Source: Spirogloea muscicola (taxonomy: Eukaryota > Streptophyta > Zygnematophyceae > Spirogloeales > Spirogloeaceae). From it: DNA of 41,981 nucleotides. Location: assembly GCA_009602725.1 (NCBI GenBank), contig WELB01000033.1, positions 142,011 to 183,991 on the forward strand, given 5' to 3'. Within the stretch, counting starts at the first letter, position 1. Each line of letters starts with the position of its first letter. This document shows, in pieces, positions 650 to 29,700 of the stretch. The position numbers were made by a program, and so were the translations under genes. The notes under the pieces are model-generated. The model did not search any database, had not been told where the DNA came from, and was given only the letters and a program-made list of their open reading frames with translations.

Positions 650-3600
650 ATGTCGCCGCCGAAGAAGATGGTCGCGGTGCCGATCCTGGAGGCCGGCGTC
701 CGTCGGTGGGACGCGAGCGAGGCGGCCCGGCGGTCGGCCGCCCCGTCGTTCTCCTTTGCCGACGCTGCCACGAGGGAGGCGGAGCTGCCGGACATGGCGG
801 CGGGTGATGTTGGCCTCGACCTCGGTGCGGCGAGCGTGCCCCACTGCCGGCTCGAGAATGGGCAGCAGGTCGTCACGATCAAGGTCAGTCGTCCTTCTCT
901 CAGCAGCAGCAGTGGCCGCCCTTCCGGTGGAGGCCGCTGCGACCCCCATGAGAGGTCGCCTGAGAGCTTGCTGATGCTGGAAGTGGAGCTACGCACCTCG
1001 CCTGGCAGCTCCCGGCAGGGACGTCCTTCTACGGCACTGGCGAGACCGGCGGCTCGCTCGAGCGCACCGGCCGGCGGGTCAGGCTCGTCCCCCCTCCTTG
1101 ACCCTTATCCAGCTTGCTGGATTCGCCTTTTGATAGGGCCAGCTTTGCAGTCTGCAAGAGCTCGGTTCCTAAACCCTTGGTATTTGCCATCTGGTATTTA
1201 GGCATCAGTTAGCGACCTTCATGTGTTGACCCGTGGTTACTGAGCAATACGCAGTGGGTAACTTACGTTATTATATTTGCTTGCTGTTGTGATTGGCCTT
1301 CCCAAACCCCTCCCCTGCACGCTGCTGTCATTGCGCAGATTGTTGGGTGGAACACCGATGCGTGGGGTTACGGCCGCAGCACGTCGTCCCTGTACCAGTC
1401 GCACCCCTGGGTGCTCGCCGTGCTACCTGATGGCTCCGTGCTCGGCGTGCTCGCAGATACGACGCGGCGTGTGGAGGTCGGTCATGGCCGAGCCGAGCCG
1501 ACGATGCTTCATCTGCTGCTTCCGACTCAGCTCCTGTTGCCCACATTGGTGGCCAACCGCCAATGGAGCTCTCTCACTGGTAGCCCCTCTTGGGCCGGGC
1601 AGGTGGACCTGCGCAAGGAGGGCGTCATCCGCTTCGCCGCACCGGGAGCATACCCTGTCGTCACGTTCGGGCCCTTCTCAACACCCGAGGCCGTCCTGAC
1701 CTCCCTCTCGCACGCCATAGGTATGTATAAACACTGAGAAGCCAACTCATCAAATCACCGCGCCGAGGTCAAGTCGTGAGTCACGCCTTGAGTTGACAGT
1801 GCCAAGGGTTTTGAGCAATATTGGCTGCCCCCCTCGACCCTCTCTTAAGATGCTTATTCTCTTCGAATAGGTTGCCCCTTCTCCTCAGAACCGCATCCAT
1901 GCCTCACACTCTTTTGGCCCTTGCGCTGGGTTGGTCGCCTGCGAAACCGAAACCCTAAACCTAATTCCTAAATCTGCGACGCAGGTGAGATGCCCATGCC
2001 CGCCAAGTGGACGCTGGGTTACCACCAGTGCCGCTGGAGTTATGAGACTGCTGACAGGGTCCTAGAGGTACTGCCGCTGGCGCAGCGCGGGTCGCGCCCT
2101 CTCCTCCTCTCCAGCATCTCCTTGTCTAGAGTCCTCCAGGTGGTGCACGCCTCTTTGATGCAGGCGCCTGAGCAATGGCCAGGCTGCCGCGGCCCTTGCT
2201 TCACACAGGGACTCTGTTCATGCCCCCCCGGTGGTCGCTCGGGTTCCACCAGTGTCGCTTTAGCTATGAGCCAGACTCGCAGGTCCGCAAGGTGCGTACG
2301 TACGTATGTCGGACCAAGGCGAGAGTTGGCAAGGCAAGAGTCGGCCTGATCGCATGGGCTGTGGCGCACACCTGCATCCTGCGAGAGCCTTAGCTTTCCC
2401 GAGCCCCTGGTTGCTGACTTGCTGGGAGGATCCAATTGGCTTTTGTTACTGGGCAATGTTTGCCCTTTCATTACCGCCTTATTGGGTTCCAGAATATGTT
2501 TCAACAAAAGTTGTGGGCTTGAAGTGCAGACTTGCCAGTCACTGTCCATAAGGCTGAGGTGCCCTGGTGCAGGTTGCGCGGGAGTTCCGTGAGCGGCGGA
2601 TACCTTGCGATGTCATATGGATGGACATTGACTACATGGATGGCTTCCGCTGCTTCACTTTTGACCCAGTGAGCGGCCCGCCTCCAGTCTTGCCAGCTGA
2701 TTTTGACTAAGTCTAGCTTGCTTGACAGCCATGGTTGCCCTGGTCTTAGGTCCAATTCAAGGCTGTCTTGCTGCTCCATGTCTGGTTGTAGTTTGTGCCA
2801 AAGACACGTTTCTGGTATGGCTTCTCACAAGCCGGCCATGGATGGCAAGGCTAAGGCTTCACAGCCGCTGTCCTTACTTGCGTGCAGCTTCAGGGTACTT
2901 ATAGGAAGTTAGAAAGCTTATGATAGTGATATTCCTTATTCTACCTGTAAACTTTAGAGCCATGTGTGATTGAGTAGCTGCTTGACTTGGCACTTGCAGA
3001 AGAAGTTCCCAGACCCCGAGGGCCTGGCTGCGGACTTGCACGCGCAGGGCTTTAAGGCGGTGTGGATGATTGACCCTGGAATTGCACGCGACGAGGGCTA
3101 CTCAGTGTTCCGTCAGGGCACCGAGCAGGACGTCTGGGTGCAGCGTGCCAATGGCCAGCCGTTTGTGGGTAAGGGCTACAGTGGCTGACTTGACTGCCTT
3201 TGTGGAGAATGAATTCTGGAGACTAGGTGCTGTAAGTGATGGGTCAGTAGGTCATTCTCACTGTTTTTTATTGTTATTTTGTATGGGAAGATGCTTGCGC
3301 CCTTCAGTAACCTGAATCTTTGAACACCCTATATTCATTGCCATCAAACTCGTACTGAAAGGCTTCCATCATTTGTTACAAGAAGAATCTTATTACTGGG
3401 ATTGAGCACATTCTACAAGTCTCTTTTATGATTATGGTGCAGGTAATGTGTGGCCCGGCCCATGCGTATTCCCAGATTACACAGCTGAGCGCGTGAGAAA
3501 GTGGTGGGCCGATCTCATCTGCAAATTCAGCTCCAGGGGAGTCGATGGCATCTGGAACGACATGAACGAGCCAGCCGTGTTCAATGTGAGTTACCACCAC

Positions 3601-6600
3601 CCTACACGCCCTTGTCCTCTCTCCTGATTTACAACCTGCGCCCCCCATGTATATTTCTACTACTATCTGATTGCAGTGCTGAAAACAAGCAGGGTTAGTG
3701 GGGCTTTGGGGCTTCGGGGTTTCGGGATAGCATTCTGCACATGAATGTTCTTTTTCCAAAGATCCAAATCAGGGAGTAAACATGTTCCCTGAAAGAAGAA
3801 TCACTCCACTTAATAGCACCTCTGAAATAGCCATTCATACAAACTTATTCACTGATTTTTATGGCTCCACTTATCCTATGAACAATTGAAATGAAAGTGG
3901 AAGTAAGCTGTCTGTCTGAGAGGAGAGGTTGAAGGTGGGTGGCGAGGTCGGCAATCTCACAATCATAGTACTACCTTGCAACACTGGCTGGTCATATTGA
4001 AGTCCCTCGGCCTGTCCTTGTCCAGACGATCTCCAAGACAATGCCTGAGAACAACGTCCACCGTGGGGACAAGGAGCTTGGTGGCAAGCAGAGTCACGCC
4101 CACTATCACAATGTGAGCTTAAGCTATGCTTGGTTACCGTGCACCTTATTTGGCTTGTGTTGTCGTACTTGTCTAAGTTCCAGTCGAGGTGAGGTCAGCA
4201 AAGGTCAAGATAGCAGATTGGCGCATGTCTAGAAGATGCTGTCATGTGGTCAGATGGACTCTAGGTGTCAGCCGTACATTGTAGGCTCTAAATTTCAGGT
4301 CTGGGCCAGGTAACTCGAGCTAAGCTGCAGCTGGTCGTTGTCCTGACTAGCCTGTATCGCTGTTCTTGCGCTCGATATGCAGGTGTATGGCATGCTGATG
4401 GCGCGGTCCACCTTTGAGGGCATGCGATTAGCAGATCCAGACCGCCGCCCCTTTGTGCTGACCCGCGCGGCATACATTGGTAGCCAGCGGTATGCTGCGA
4501 CGTGGACGGGCGACAATCTCGCCTCTTGGGAGCACCTGCACATGTCCATCGCCATGGGCCTCAATCTTGTATGTACTTGTGATACTCGCACATGCATTGC
4601 TCAATGTGGCAATGCAGCTGGTGGCTACATTGTCAGACAATCGTCAGAATTGCCTACCTCGTAGCCTTACTTCCACAAGACAAAAGCCTGAAGCTTGGAT
4701 AGTAGCAGTACCTAGAGCTTGTTCTAGGTCTTGATTCCTTTCACTTCTTTTGAGATGCTTCTGAGAGCGTCGCTTTTACAGAGACACAGTTGCTTGCACA
4801 GTACTACGGAGAACTATTTCTGCACTTGTTTCCATTATTTGCTTTTCTTCTCTAGTCAAACTTGACACCACTTGTCACCCTTTTGTATCACTGCCCGTGC
4901 AAGGTACAACAGATCCACAAGGTTCTGATGCACTAAGCTGTGACCTGAGGTGTACTACAGGGTCTCAGTGGACAACCCTTCTCTGGGCCAGACATTGGCG
5001 GCTTCGCAGGAGACTCAACGCCCCGTCTTTTTGCCAGGTCAGCCTCGACTAGGGGATATAAGAGAGAGTGGCCACTCCAGGCACTCTGGTATCAGCTATC
5101 ATAGATACCGGACTGCGCAAGCCATATGACAGCTTGTGTCCATGGCAGGAAACAGTGATGTTCAGGAAGTCTTTCCTAGGCCTTACTCAAGCAGCTCTAG
5201 CATGTCAGGTGGATGGGCATTGGAGCGTTGCTTCCTTTCTCCAGAGGTCACTCTGAGCAAGGCACCTCGCACCATGAGCCCTGGTGCTTTGGGGAGGAGG
5301 TAAGCTTGCTTGGCCTGGTTCTGATTATGGTCTTTGCCGGCACAGCTGTGCCCAGACTTTGACTGCATCTATGACCAAGTAGTTACAGGCACACATGTGA
5401 AAGAGGCTTCATATCTAACTTGCCAGGGCATGCCATTGACTTTGTCATATCAATCAGAGGGTACTGTGATGAAGTCTTTGGATTCTGAGATCGTGACAGC
5501 TATCGAGCCCCTGTCCTTGATAGTGGGTTGCCATCATTGGCTCTTGGCTTGTGTGTTCCTTTTAGCGATGAAGCCAGCCAAAATCAGATCCACAGGAGGA
5601 AGGTGAGGTACCATTCCTCAATGAGCTGCTTTCTTTATGTCTTGTGGGAGCATTTTATCCCACTGCGCAAAAGTAGAAGCGTTGATCAAAGTGGGATACG
5701 ATGCTTCCACAGACATAAAGAAAGTAGCTCATCCAGGAATGCTACATCGTCTTCCTCCTGTAGATCTTATTGTGACTGGCCTCCCTTTCTGATGGGGCTG
5801 ATGAGGTTCAGAACAGCAGGTGCATGTTGACATTATTATTTCCTGATCTACAACAAGTTCTGCATCATACTGTGCATCCCATCTAGTGCGAAAATGTTTC
5901 CCGGGCGGCCTTGCTGAGGAGATACCGCCTGCTGCCACACTTTTACACCCTCTTTTACAAAGCTCACACCACAGGAGTACCAGTGATGACTCCAGTCTTC
6001 TTTGCAGGTGTGCATTTGCAGACCAAAGTCCACTGCTGAACTTTTATTGTCTACTTCTCAGGATACTTGCAGCTGTCCCGCTGTTAGTAATTATCAAAGT
6101 CCAAGTCTAATTCGTCACCACAGAAGTATGATAAAAGGTGCTCTGAGAGGGTCTGTATCACAAAATGTCAGCTATTATGTGAAGGTCTGGTGGGTGCTGT
6201 GGCACCAGTGCTGGGTATGTAGCCTTCTTGTAAGAGCTCTTTGTCTGGGCAATCTATGATGCAGACCCAAAGGATCCAAAACTGAGGGAGATTGAGGACT
6301 GTTTCCTCCTAGGCAACCTCCTTGTGGCAGCAAGGTGACCACTCCACTTAAACGCTTCAATAATGCAAATATGTGACTAAAACGGCAGACCTCGCATTCA
6401 TGCAATCAACCTGAAAAACCGTGTGGCAATATGGTCCATTCCTCGTATATGCACACTACTCATTAGGCACATGGCTCGGTCCTAATAATCGGCTTATGTC
6501 TTGCAGCACTGATAAGCGACGAGCAGCTGAGCCAGGCTCTGTGGTGCTGCCTGCGGGCATATGGCAACGCTTTCACTTTGACGACAGTCACCCGGTAATA

Positions 6601-9341
6601 AGCTGCAGCCCACATGTATGCCACTCTAAATGGGTGCCCAGGTGTTGGTCAAGCTGGTCTTCATTGGTTTGGTGTTTTGAGTGTGCACTTGCTTAGAGCT
6701 GTTTCTCTTATTGCTTGTTTCCTGTTATAGGACCTTCCACTTCTCTATTTGCGAGGGGGCTCCATTGTCCCCACTGGGCCACCCCATCAAAGCGTCACAG
6801 AGTGCTCACCCGAGGATCCAGTTACGCTTTTGATTGCACTAGACTCTCAAGGTGATGACACTGTGTTTCTTCTTATTCTACTGCAGTCCTCAGCTTGTGT
6901 GGACTGGCCACTGTTCAATCATATGCTAGTGTTATGATAATCAGTGTTGAGGTTACGGGAAGCAACTTGCACGCGTAATAGTAGGTTGTGAAGCTGGTGG
7001 ACCAGATCAGCACACGCCGATAATTGGCCTTCTACTACATGAAATGCGTAATTGAACCCAATTATTGGTCTCAGGCAAGGCTGAGGGCCAGCTCTTTGAG
7101 GACAGTGGTGACGGTTATGGTTTCCAAAAGGGCAAGTACCTGCTTACCACCTACAGCGCCGCTGAGGAAGGCGGGCAGCTCCATATCTCCGTCAAAGCCG
7201 TTGAGGGCTCACTCCAGCGGCCCAGGAGGGCGCTTCGAGCTTGCCTTCTCCTTGGGGAATGCACGCAGGTTCATATCTACTTTGTCACTTGCCGAGGATA
7301 ATATAGATCAAGTCCTACCATTATATGAGGTTCTAGATGATGTCCAATCTTTGCTAGGGCCTGTCAGCAGACCAGAAGCCATGCATGCAGATTGCTTTTG
7401 CACATCTTGTGGGTCGACAAGGGCATGGGTCTAGTGCTTAGCCTCCACTCGTGAATGCTACTCGTGGATGCTATTTGCTGTTATCGGTTTCAACTATGCA
7501 ACTTACAGACAATGGTGCACCCTCCGTGCTTGTGGTCGTCCTTGCAGGTAGAAGCTGAAGGGGTGGATGGGGAGCCTCTTGTGATGAAGTTGCCCGACAA
7601 GAACGAGACTGAGACGATGGTGACCAGCACAAAGGAGATGCTCCAGCATGCTGGTGTGTCTCAGTTTTCCTGTGGTAATGAATAGCCTGTGAAAGCTCTC
7701 AAAAAGAAGTCATATCTATAAGCCTAATTATAATTTTCTATTATCACATTGGTAGTTAGCCCTGTGTAATTTGACAAACGTCTGAACGCCTCCTTGTACA
7801 AACTTCAGTGAATGGCAGAGGTTTGGAGGACGACGAGAGCAGGGAGGAGCAGCTTGAGCAGGAGCCAGAATTCAAGACATTTGTGGAGCTGGCCGCCGGT
7901 GACTGGCTGGCCAAGGTGGCGCCCTGGATTGGTGGCAGGATCATCTCGCTCATCCACGCTCCAACAGGTTCTTCCAAATATCAGTCAGTCATGGACGTTC
8001 CTTCTCTTCTTCGAGCTATTTTACGAATTATGCTGCTTCCACAGGAGAGCACTCCCAGGTGCGATCAAGGTTATCGTCTCATGCAAGTAGCGTACTTTTG
8101 TGTCAGGGAGAGAATGGCTGGAGGCGAAGCTGGAGCAAGGGGGCTACGAAGAGTACAGCGGGCCTGAGTACCGAGCAGTCGGCTGCACAGAGCCGTACGA
8201 GGTCGTCAAGTGGGTTGCCAGCCCTTGGCATTTGACATTGGAATGCCTATTCAATGAAGTTAGCATCGTTGTGTGGGGCTCACCATTAGCCACTGAAGCT
8301 CCTGGAGTGAAAAGTGCAGAGAGATTCCATCGCAGTGATTGTAAAGCAGGAACAGTTCATCTTGCAGCTGGGTTTCTTTACCGCCATGGCTTAGTATATA
8401 CTGCCGTTGGCTCTGGGCTGCCAAGCAGGAGGACGACGACGCCGAAGGGCGTGGACAGCAGTGTGACCATGGAGGGCGACATTGGCGGGGGCCTGGTGCT
8501 GCTGAGGACCATCCAAGTGCCATCGGACGACCTCCACAGGCTCTGCATCTCGTCGAGCATCGAGGCGCGTGCCATTGGGGCCGGCGCAGGCGGCTTCTCT
8601 CGGTGACTGACCTTCCCTGCAGCTCCAATCCGCTTGGCATCATGGGCAGACTACTGCTCTGAGTCTGATCATGACTTCCTAGACGCAGGACCTCCTGTGA
8701 AAAACAAGTCTACGTGGGCGCCCTTATCTCCAGGCTAGTTGACGTGATTTGCGGCTATGGCATACCCTGCCACCTCTCAGACTTCAGCAGTCAGCTCAAG
8801 AGACACACTCATTGCCTAATTGACTGCTCCATTTCGTTTGGCTTCGCGGGTTTGCAGGCCTGTGTGCCTGCGTGCGCACCCATCCTTTAAGCTGCCCCAC
8901 ACAGCAGCTGCGGTGGTGCGCTTCACGGCAATCGATGGCAGCACCCACGAGCTGCGGGCGGAGTTTGGGGAGGCGGTCCTCAAGGGCACAGATCGCCCCA
9001 ATGGTACCCTCTTTCGACTGTCTCTACTTGTATACGCGCATTTGATTGCTTACAATATCCAGGCATCACATCAGTTGCTGGATCACCTGCACAATTGCAC
9101 TTGATGAGCAAATAATGGGACTTAGTGCCGTGCAGGCGAATGGATGCTGGTGGACCTCGCCGAGGGTGCAGCCATTGTGAGCAGGTTCGACGTCGGCGAG
9201 GTGGAGGCGTGCATGGTGCACTGGGGCGGCGGCTACTGCAACCTGGAGCTCTGGTCGCCCGAGCGGCCCGTCTCCAAGGACACGCCGCTGCACGTTGCAC
9301 ACTCCTACGAGGCCCACCGGGTTGCCAAGCTCGTGGAGTAG
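650..9341 (+). CDS. HGL1: GH31 alpha-glucosidase, plant HGL1 (heteroglycan glucosidase 1) type
   Basis: Hydrolyses alpha-linked glucose residues by family analogy; the Arabidopsis relative is heteroglycan glucosidase 1. Exons: 650-883, 1009-1077, 1339-1476, 1603-1720, 1985-2067 or 2209-2291, 2573-2668, 3000-3168, 3443-3585, 4026-4112, 4383-4568, 4961-5037, 5209-5299, 5887-6007, 6265-6334, 6507-6594, 6731-6851, 7075-7268, 7548-7653, 7809-7967, 8107-8209, 8429-8602, 8858-9003, 9136-9341. All phases join, giving about 992 aa, close to the plant protein. Landmarks are WNTDAWGYG, HQCRWSY, VIWMDIDYMDGF, the nucleophile Asp in GIWNDMNEP, the acid/base Asp in ATWTGDN, and GPDIGGFAG. The start at 650 is chosen because MVAVPILEAG aligns near the family N-terminus. 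Convergent with the RRM gene downstream. The gene looks intact; its oddity is the duplicated fifth exon. Confidence 0.93.
1202..1245 (+). repeat. fragment matching 30989-31030, possible LINE ORF tail, in HGL1 intron 2
   Basis: About 43 nt are nearly identical to 30989-31030. One frame reads VSDLHVLTRGY followed by a stop, like the C-termini of the two LINE ORF pieces (SYSDLLLLTRGH and VYTDLLLLTRAY). It is probably a 5'-truncated copy, although the match is short. Confidence 0.45.
1985..2067 (+). other. HGL1: alternative exon 5a of the HGL1-like gene
   Basis: An 83-nt exon flanked by AG and GT, with entry phase 1 and exit phase 0. It encodes MPMPAKWTLGYHQCRWSYET and then ADRVLE. It carries the usual Trp of the GH31 HQCRW motif. 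It has the same length and phases as exon 5b, so only one of the two can be used if the frame is to be kept. Confidence 0.8.
2209..2291 (+). other. HGL1: alternative exon 5b of the HGL1-like gene
   Basis: An 83-nt exon flanked by CACAG and GTGCGT, with the same entry and exit phases as exon 5a. It encodes TLFMPPRWSLGFHQCRFSYE and then PDSQVRK. By my alignment 13 of 27 codons match exon 5a, and the Trp of HQCRW is Phe here. The reading frame and both splice sites are intact, which argues against a decayed duplicate. Confidence 0.75.
5573..5783. mobile_element. MITE-like foldback element in HGL1 intron 12
   Basis: Two arms of roughly 85-100 bp face each other. The left arm runs from about 5573 and the right arm ends near 5783; they share ACAGGAGGAAG, CATTCCT, GAGCT, TTTCTTTATGTCT and TATCCCACT in the same order, about 85% identical by eye. 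No coding capacity. The size and long terminal inverted repeats fit a non-autonomous DNA element. I could not identify a target-site duplication. Confidence 0.7.
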
Positions 9342-10230
9342 CCTGCCGTCTCTGCTCCATTGTCACTTGATTCCATGTTCACAGCTGCGAACCTTTCCTC
9401 AGATATTGAGCACCATAGTCTGATCCTTAGCGCCTGTGCGTAGACTACGACGGCAGCTTTTGCACCTCAAGTATTTTCTCATGTTGGCCTGATTATTGGC
9501 CACTATGCTGGCATTCAGCATTGTGCGCAGTTGACAATCACTGAGCACTCGTGCAGACTGCTCACTCTCCTTACTGCAGGGGGCTACGACTGGCGCTCAT
9601 GCTCCTTCTCGAGCACGACAGCCCAGTCGGCCCCAATGATCTGGCTATATACCGTCGTCGAGGGTTTGAGTGTGTTGCACTCTTGACCTGGAGTGGGTGC
9701 CATCTACAGCAGCAAATGCACTCGCAGTGGGTACACATATGTTGGCAGGGAAAATCTCTAGCGTATCTGCTTAAACAACTTGTCAGATGAGCTAGCATTC
9801 ACGTCTACCTACCTCTCAACACCGCAAAAGTAAAGCGGGGTGCAGATATAGGGACTTGGCACTTAGCAGGGATGTAGCAGGGACACCAGTGACAGGATTT
9901 CATGGAGGCTGGCCATTATGCGGTCTCATTAAGGTCAAGCCGCGCGGCCTCTGGACTGCTGCCATGGAGCTGAAAGGACAGCAGATGTTCAAGCCGCAAC
10001 TTGGCAGCCTAGCTGCACAGATTGCCTAATGGACATCTCCTACACATTCATGATTCCACCTTCAGGAGACGCTACCTATGTAAACCCTACCCACAGTTGG
10101 AATCTTGACGTCACTGACACGAATTTTCCAAATTCATAAGTCTTTCTTTCTTAGGATAGGGCACACACCCCCACACTTCTCAACCTGCCAAATGTGGCTC
10201 TACCACCTTGAGAACTGTGGGGATTGATAA
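9342..10230. other. convergent intergenic region with two 3' ends
   Basis: This lies between the stop codons of the plus-strand HGL1-like gene and the minus-strand RRM gene. No convincing exon, repeat or RNA gene is visible. It presumably holds both 3' UTRs. Confidence 0.6.
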
Positions 10231-26738: not shown

Positions 26739-29700
26739 CTGACCACTAGCTGAGATACCGGCTTCGAGCTCTTCCACGACTTGCCTGTTGAGCTCTGCCC
26801 ACATCTCTGGGTAACGATTGTGCGCTGTCCTGGCATCCTCTCCTGGGCTCAAACAGCAGCTTGAAGCAGGATTTCAGTGACTTAAGAGCAGGGAGTATGC
26901 GGTCTGACTGACCACGACCACACTTCACCATCTGAAACTAAGTCGAAGAGATGTTCACCGGAGAAAAGAGAAGCTTCAAATGGTAGCGCCTCGCAAAAGT
27001 CGGCCATCCAGCCGCTGATCCCGAGCTTGACCATGCCTTGTATGAGCTTGTGATACCAGGCCTTGCTTGCTGGGTTGGTCAGGTCGATCATCGCTGCGCT
27101 GAAGTTCGTATTCTGTATCATGATTGTGCTGCCCTGCTTGTCAGCAACCACCAAATTTTCCTCTGCAAACGAGGCAGAGTACCAATATGAAGTGAGGTGT
27201 GGCAGGAGATAGCTCAGCAAAAGACGATCCAATTGCACATGTGGCGACATGAAATGTCAAAAGTCCAATATATGAGGCTGGCATCCTGAGCTGAGCTATG
27301 TGAAGCTGCCACATCCATTAGCGGCTTACTCGAAGCTTCGGAGAAGAGATCTCTCCTCCTATTGAGCTTCTGAGTCACTTCGGCGAGATAGGGGTTGACG
27401 TATGCCAGAACTCGAACATCCTTGGACCTCAGATATCTCACAAGCTTTGCCCAATTGGGATAGTGCTCTTGGTCAAGCTCCCAGTTCCACCAGAGCTGCT
27501 TCCCTATGCTGGTGTCCCGCTGGCCACACCAGTCCTGCATAGAGGAAAGCTCAATCAGGAATTGAAGCTGACCACAACAGATTCAGGGATTCCAGGAAAC
27601 AATTATGCCCAAACTGAAGTCCATCTAGACCAAGATGACAAGACCTGATCAGCATGGGCCTAAGGCTAAGTGATGCAATTAGACGCTTCTATCAACAAGA
27701 AATCCATAGTAAGGGATAGGTCCTAAGGCATCCTATGATGCATTAAGATGAGAGGGGGTTGTCTGTGACCTGCAGCCAAAATGCAGCCACAGGTGTGCGA
27801 TCACTCAACAGATGCCTGAACACATCAAGCACTTTGGCAGTGCCGCCTTGCATGCCGACAACAGCTCCCGAAATTATCCAGCTTGGGAGCTCCCTCATTC
27901 TCCCCACACATTCTGTATAGTGCTCGATGATGTCCAGCGGCGTTTCACCATAGACTATCCTCCCACTCAGATGCCCAGCATGAATCTGCACAGGTGAAGC
28001 ACTGGCTTACAGATGCACACTTTCCTCTTAGTCCATTATCATCACAGCAGCTGACTTGCTTCCTGGCTCCAGCAGTAGGCAATGAAAGGGCAGAATGGCG
28101 TCTAGGATCATAGAGGACAAAGTTGACCTGGATTTGCACGCAGTCCTTCCGCCGCAAATCAAATAAGCAGTACTCGTAACAGTCCAGGTACACACATCTC
28201 AAATGAGAGGTGATATACTGCACGGCAGTATACAACCTGCCACTAGTCAGCAAGTCAAGCAACCTCAACAAACCTAAAAGCCTGACCAGCAACGCTGCCG
28301 TCTCGAAGGTAGACTGTTGTGAGTCCTCAGGCTTGCTTGCTGTACTGAATAACTGCCAGACAGACCTTGGAAAATTTGCTACATCAAGCCAAGCACGAGC
28401 TCATAAGGGACACAATCAATTACTAAGGGAGTCAGTCATGCGATGGCTCCACCTGTGGCACGGGGGCGTACGTTGTGTGCCAGGAGCCACCGCCCCTCTT
28501 GGAGAGGATGTTCGCTGCCCATGTCACTGGCTGATCACCCCTCCCAATGCCCTGTGTCAAGAATGCAGGTGTGCACCATTTATTTATGGACTCATTCGTG
28601 CAGATTGAGCAAAGTCAGTGCCTACAAGCCCCCCCAAAGTATCACTCACCTCTCGATGTACTTGCAAGTGGCTACAACAACCAGAAATCCACCGACTTCT
28701 AGACCTTCGACTATGACAGGTGCTCCAGATGGGCGGCAGCGGACTTGCTCTTGGACGAGGATGGGGACACGGCGGCCCTTCATGTCGAAGTACGAAAACT
28801 GCTCGCCAAAGCCGAAGAAGCCCTCGCTCGTGCTTGATGCGTACGTCAGCTGCCCAAGGACATCGCATGTTACGCTGCCTGAGCTTGGGCCAAGGTGAGC
28901 CGACACGGCTAGCAAAGGCACAGGGCTAGCACAGACTACCTTCGCTGCACCTGCAAGCAAGTACATATTGGTCCAAAAATTAGTCGAAGATATGGAAAGT
29001 ATTTATGTAGCTTGCACAGGAAGGTCTGGGTACCTGGATGCGATTGAGGTCCGTGGCCCTCCCAGCTGCTTTCCACTGCTGCAGAACTGGCCGCAGCGTG
29101 CGGTGGTCGCCTGACAGAACGAGACGGCGCCACCTGCCAGGAGGGTGGTGACCGGATGTCACTCCATGCTGCAGAATGAGACCTGAGCTATCGCTTGGCG
29201 AACTGCACACGAAGTAAAACTGCACTACCTGCATCATTACATTGATCTTGATTTCCACTTCTATTCAAGAAAGTCTATCTTCAAGTGGCTCAAGTGCCAA
29301 GTTGTGCGCTTAACGACTTACCGACGCAGGCGGCCCATGAGGCCGGGCCTGGAGGGCTTGGCGAGCTTGTTGGTGGGGCCCACGGCAGAGCCAGCGGTGA
29401 CGTCATACGACCACCACCACCGCCGCGGCGAAGGCCGCTGGCCGCTGCGCCCCGAAGACCGGCCGCCCGACACGGCACCCACGGCCGGCGGCGGCGGCTC
29501 CGCCACGGGGGCATCAGCTAGTGCCGTCTCAGTGTGGCCCCACTTGCCCACGAGCTCGGCGACCGCGTCGTCGCTCTTGGGCGTCTCCGCCTTCCACTTG
29601 GCACTGCCGGCGGCGTCGGCGAGGGCCCTGCGGCTCCCGCTCTTCCTGATCGCCCGATCGGCCTTCTTGGCTGCTACGCGCCTCGAGCCGCCATGACTGC

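Follow-up and report, generated by a model that had tools for sequence, protein, structure and literature searches.

Can a single alpha-glucosidase gene supply a cell with two enzymes that differ in the pocket in which the sugar is held? The question is raised by a locus of the streptophyte alga Spirogloea muscicola, situated in a stretch of 41,981 nucleotides that was analysed as a whole and is referred to here as the window (positions count from its first letter). A first-pass annotation of this stretch had proposed that two neighbouring exons of an HGL1-type GH31 glucosidase gene, 5a and 5b, are used alternately and that the choice between them exchanges a residue of the active site.

Identity of the gene

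650..9341, + strand: GH31 (HGL1-like) alpha-glucosidase gene, delimited by GT-AG junctions and Pfam domains, with both isoforms open in three copies

The gene, whose ATG is probably that at position 650, consists of 24 exons, namely 22 constitutive ones plus 5a and 5b. A Pfam profile search found PF13802, PF01055, PF21365 and PF17137 in the isoform carrying 5a (isoform a) as well as in the one carrying 5b (isoform b), with near-equal PF01055 scores of 417.9 and 415.8 bits for the two (cut-off 23.5), and no Pfam match in either isoform over residues ~690-992. The GH31 motifs GIWNDMNEPAVF and WTGDNLASWEHL are present and align with those of 5djw and GANAB; we take the Asp of WNDMNEP to be the catalytic nucleophile and that of TGDN to be the acid/base. 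The top PDB match was 5djw (E 3.6e-201), followed by maltase-glucoamylase (5.1e-151) and glucosidase II alpha (~1e-108). Bacterial relatives, mainly from Phycisphaerales and other MAGs, showed 48-57% identity among the best 80 of 476 loci, a set obtained with a query that contained the 5b peptide.

According to a passage in PMC3087550, Arabidopsis HGL1 (AT3G23640), also a plant GH31 enzyme, belongs to a group whose nearest relatives outside plants are bacterial, and the bacterial affinity of the algal gene, seen among the PDB entries and bacterial genomes searched, fits this group. The earlier designation as an HGL1-type GH31 gene is secured by domains as far as GH31 is concerned; its HGL1 part is putative and reflects the closeness to bacteria together with that passage.

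Anatomy and reading frame of the exon pair

1603..1720, + strand: exon 4, left in phase 1, that is, after the first base of a Gly codon
1721..1984, + strand: intron before 5a, not specially conserved (63/226 ungapped columns variable, 50 gapped)
1985..2067, + strand: exon 5a, 83 nt, peptide GEMPMPAKWTLGYHQCRWSYETADRVLE with the split Gly
2068..2208, + strand: spacer intron between 5a and 5b, 141 nt
2209..2291, + strand: exon 5b, 83 nt, peptide GTLFMPPRWSLGFHQCRFSYEPDSQVRK with the split Gly
2292..2572, + strand: intron after 5b (35/277 columns variable)
2573..2668, + strand: exon 6, entered in phase 0 and common to both isoforms

When rechecked, the coordinates of 5a and 5b, their equal length, their AG and GT borders, the entry in phase 1 and exit in phase 0 and the reading frames were all as originally described. 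The homology of the two peptides was likewise reproduced, with 13 of 27 residues identical, or 14 of 28 if the shared split-codon Gly is counted. Aligned without gaps, 5a and 5b reach a BLOSUM62 score of 86, compared with 36 for the best of 26,583 stop-free windows of 28 residues, taken in six frames from position 9401 of the window onward. A tblastn search within the gene led from the 5a peptide to 5b with an E value of 2e-8 and in the reverse direction with 2.4e-8, the best off-site match of any other exon peptide being 0.06. The 14 of 28 residues that differ lie in many cases in the final third of the exon, where the last eight residues, preceded by E21, have only V26 in common.

With either 5a alone or 5b alone the isoform is an intact protein of 992 residues. 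Inclusion of both exons breaks the frame, as had been claimed, and leads to a stop at codon 297 in exon 7, 1965 nt upstream of the final junction; if both are omitted, translation ends at codon 193 (exon 6), with 2111 nt left to that junction. Since the frame breaks with both exons or with none, their use would be exclusive at the protein level. In the mechanism that we propose, exon 4 would be joined to 5a or to 5b and then to exon 6, whereas transcripts with both exons or neither, in which an early stop lies far before the last junction, would presumably be removed by nonsense-mediated decay.

Three gene copies and their conservation

The 153-Mb genome holds two further copies of the region, so that it is present on three contigs, and the copies are 83-90% identical over their aligned pieces, introns included. 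Weak PF01055 matches lie 20-25 kb away from each of the three copies, and this recurrence near every copy suggests three homeologous blocks. PMC10487979 reports that the genome of Spirogloea muscicola was recently triplicated, and the three copies of the gene may well stem from this event. Both isoforms are open and all borders of 5a and 5b are kept as GT-AG in all three. The first-pass annotation had named loss or decay of 5b in all close relatives as evidence that would speak against the pair; in the two other copies within the same genome 5b is intact, with 0 and 1 differences from the window copy.

Across the three copies one of 83 sites is variable in 5a and one of 83 in 5b, compared with 204 of 2896 (7.0%) in the 22 other exons and 1100 of 4336 (25%) in the 21 other introns. 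The difference between 5a and 5b taken together and the other exons was significant (Fisher P 0.0006), as was that for 5b alone (0.018), in tests that treat columns as independent. The single change in 5b is synonymous in the homologous frame and the one in 5a is nonsynonymous, from Thr to Ser. At fourfold sites, 1/25 being variable in 5a and 5b vs 86/503, there was no significant synonymous constraint (P 0.06). Windows of 83 columns with at most one difference were absent from the introns (0 of 4010) and rare in the joined constitutive exons (12 of 2814). The longest invariant runs of the alignment, 78 nt (2217-2294) and 74 nt (1974-2047), fall on 5b and 5a, respectively, and the next longest measures 51 nt. 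Its low variability, its share in the longest invariant runs and its retention in three copies indicate that 5b is not a decayed duplicate.

Among the 23 introns, the spacer (2068-2208) has the lowest proportion of variable columns, 13/136 with 7 gapped, and the intron at 2292-2572 the second lowest. If introns are instead compared by their most conserved window of 83 columns, gaps included, the intron at 2669-2999 (7 differences) surpasses both of them (9 in 2292-2572 and 10 in 2068-2208), which tempers the claim of conservation for the introns neighbouring the pair.

These numbers bear on two alternatives. Given that just 14 of 28 residues match 5a, 5b could be taken for the unused remnant of a duplicated exon or for an assembly error, but it is found on three contigs, each time with its splice sites and frame preserved, and it has 1/83 columns changed vs 10-28% in the adjoining introns, with no intronic window equal to it. 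To all practical purposes, the three copies and the conservation rule out both a fossil exon and a mis-assembly. Near-identity of 5a and of 5b across copies would also be expected if gene conversion between the copies, rather than selection, kept them alike. Conversion tracts would, however, need to end at exon borders twice, and the flanking introns (63/226 and 35/277) vary along with the 13/136 variable and 7 gapped columns of the spacer. Because the spacer between the exons has diverged, we reject gene conversion as extremely improbable.

Splice sites and the choice between the exons

2164..2202, + strand: invariant block of 39 nt ending 6 nt before 5b, candidate splicing element

The pair had been credited with good splice sites. 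This holds for the GT-AG borders and for the strong donor of 5b, but not for the donor of 5a or for the two acceptors. A matrix derived from the remaining introns of the gene in all three copies places the 5a donor (GAG/GTACTG) last among the 23 of the window copy, with a score of 3.67 (4.78 in the other two copies), and ranks the 5b donor second from the top; the acceptors of 5a and 5b both rank in the lower third in the window copy. The combination of the weakest donor on 5a with a strong one on 5b suggests that inclusion of 5a depends on assistance and that the choice is set by a regulator. Such a regulator might act at the block of 39 nt before 5b, which exceeds in length every other invariant run outside exons in the three-copy alignment.

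RNA pairing gave no clear signal over the four stretches analysed with RNAalifold (z -0.9, -0.7, -0.5 and -2.4), on an alignment of only three sequences and with column shuffles that do not preserve dinucleotides as a simple control. Nor does the spacer of 141 nt offer a steric cause of exclusivity, since introns of 125-132 nt are present, and spliced, elsewhere in the gene; a steric block from a short spacer is hence unsupported. In the window copy, a stretch of 35 nt before 5a (1938-1972, + strand) contains the telomere-repeat-like AAACCCTAAACCTAA; it is absent from the other two copies and alters the acceptor context of 5a.

Family residues in each exon

Measured against the best 80 of 476 bacterial relatives, each exon has kept residues of the family that the other has not. 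Exon 5b retains Pro7 (80/80), Pro22 (79), Asp23 (68) and Thr2 (52), positions at which 5a carries Ala, Thr, Ala and Glu; 5a in turn retains Tyr13 (70), Arg25 (72) and Glu28 (66), for which 5b carries Phe, Gln and Lys. On average, 5a is identical to these 80 at 16.0/28 positions and 5b at 16.7/28, with a query that carried 5b. Residues found in none of the 80 are E2, A7 and T10 in 5a and L3, F4 and K28 in 5b. Judged by these positions, neither exon is the decayed one.

The same residues help to assess whether 5b could be a poison exon, that is, one spliced together with 5a or otherwise non-productively, which lowers mRNA levels by decay and whose coding appearance is a relic. The stop at codon 297 after inclusion of both exons, the strong 5b donor next to the weak 5a donor and the conserved 39 nt of intron ahead of 5b would all suit such a role, and a regulatory exon would also fit the strong conservation. 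Yet 5b in place of 5a restores the frame exactly in 3/3 copies and keeps Pro7, Trp9, Gly12, Gln15, Arg17, Ser19 and Tyr20, which are invariant in the best 80 bacterial relatives. It moreover has family residues lost from 5a. A poison exon would require none of these features. We therefore regard a poison exon as improbable.

Instead, we think it likely that 5a and 5b arose by tandem duplication and are used as mutually exclusive exons of an HGL1-like GH31 alpha-glucosidase gene, giving rise to two full-length enzymes. Of the original claim of mutual exclusivity, the equal length and phase and the logic of the frame stand; the constraint in three copies comes in addition, and exclusivity at the transcript level is a prediction. 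Judged from sequence, the pair exists and is in all likelihood functional, and transcripts containing 5b are predicted.

The exchanged pocket residue

2035..2037, + strand: TGG codon, Trp204 of isoform a, pocket position by alignment
2259..2261, + strand: TTT codon, Phe204 of isoform b, the same pocket position

The two isoforms would differ solely where the catalytic barrel domain begins, a difference that includes Trp204 vs Phe204 and could result in two active enzymes with different pocket geometry. The proposed equivalence of this position to Trp376 of GAA and Tyr299 of NtMGAM agrees with its place in alignments to the sequences of known structures, where it is index 299 in 2qly, 327 in 3lpo, 296 in 5nn3 and 172 in 3n04; we read these positions as gapless because the ends of the aligned stretches are equal in length. 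It aligns with Tyr299 of NtMGAM and Trp327 of NtSI and, if we assume index offsets of 80 for GAA and 3 for a tag, with Trp376 of GAA and Trp169 of the R. obeum enzyme. The residue at this site is F in 5djw (QQCRFSYSPDSRV), Y in both MGAM halves (9kz6) and W in GANAB (8d43, 7kbj) and in 3w37, which we take to be the sugar beet enzyme. In the best 80 of 476 bacterial relatives it is Y in 64, W in 14 and F in 2. The scarcity of F, like the residues of each exon that none of these 80 share, counts against the reading of two active enzymes. Within the same genome, another GH31 gene (three copies) has Y at the site and a further one (two copies) has W; there is no exon swap in these genes (contigs C8/C126/C2 and C4/C13), since the site lies inside longer exons.

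In GAA, W376 makes a hydrophobic contact with the ligand at subsite -1, as described in a passage of PMC5653652. A review, in the section concerned (PMC9612090), states that W169Y turns the R. obeum enzyme from alpha-1,6 to alpha-1,4 specificity and that Y299W and Y1251W in MGAM increase isomaltose hydrolysis. These mutants concern the same alignment position and, like the algal pair, exchange one aromatic residue for another, the difference being that W and Y were exchanged by mutagenesis whereas W and F would be exchanged by predicted splicing. On the other hand, GAA is reported to prefer maltose 32-fold over isomaltose despite W376. As W is thus compatible with a preference for maltose, a change of linkage is not certain, and W at this site is not tied to one linkage. 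In addition, with 13 differing positions besides W/F, the exchange could make itself felt in the fold or at the surface.

Both isoforms could accordingly be made while the swap alters stability, partner binding or regulation and leaves substrate choice as it is. The extent of the exchange (14 of 28 residues, with V26 alone shared among the last eight) would agree with this, as would the tolerance of the site for Y, W and F in relatives, by which W/F is a tolerated aromatic exchange, and the variable preference of enzymes with W, exemplified by the 32-fold value for GAA. Against it stands the finding, as the review section (PMC9612090) presents it, that engineered W/Y exchanges at the same residue alter linkage preference in three GH31 enzymes, and we consider an effect restricted to stability, partners or regulation rather unlikely.

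We infer that both transcripts are made, that both enzymes are active and that the exchange shifts linkage or substrate preference. More specifically, splicing may toggle a linkage-switch residue of GH31, so that one locus has two linkage preferences, kept through genome triplication, a proposal that we put forward tentatively and at somewhat less than an even chance. The W form would then be better on branch-type or isomaltose-like substrates and the F form on maltose-like ones or other linkages.

Comparison with known systems

Most of the familiar mutually exclusive exons come from animals. In human KHK-A/KHK-C, PKM1/PKM2 and CYP4F3A/B such pairs change enzyme kinetics or substrate preference, and, as with 5a and 5b, one segment of the protein is exchanged through tandem exons. 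Unlike the algal pair, these are animal genes of other enzyme families, and no sugar-pocket residue of a glycoside hydrolase is involved. To our knowledge, there are few cases in which mutually exclusive exons exchange a residue of a catalytic pocket. Arabidopsis HGL1, as far as we know, has this exon in one form only, with Trp at the corresponding position. The entry 5djw, named Alpha-glucosidase II and presumably BT_3299, has F there, like isoform b. It resembles the bacterial HGL1-like enzymes, and differs from the algal gene, in having one fixed residue per gene, no introns and, in the aligned part, no plant-type C-terminal extension.

No description of a spliced swap at the GH31 specificity position was found in the literature searched, which covered few subscription journals and was in part represented by extracts. 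As far as seen in it, mutually exclusive exons that alter an enzyme are already known, and the predicted swap at the specificity position of a GH31 enzyme is new. If both isoforms are made, the locus would be a natural counterpart of an engineered specificity switch, and gene models with one exon would be incomplete for the enzyme. The three conserved copies would also offer a way to test, in an alga closely related to land plants, whether splice choice governs the use of carbohydrates.

Other features of the window

Pieces of a second GH31-like gene, perhaps, we presume, sulfoquinovosidase-like, lie on the - strand at 26882-27582 of the window (PF01055, E 1.7e-7 and 7e-4), and a PF01055 match of the same score was observed at C33:320089-320313. 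A pattern search of viral contigs yielded no match. Just upstream of the gene and inside the contig, positions 1-122 of the window are a run of 122 T.
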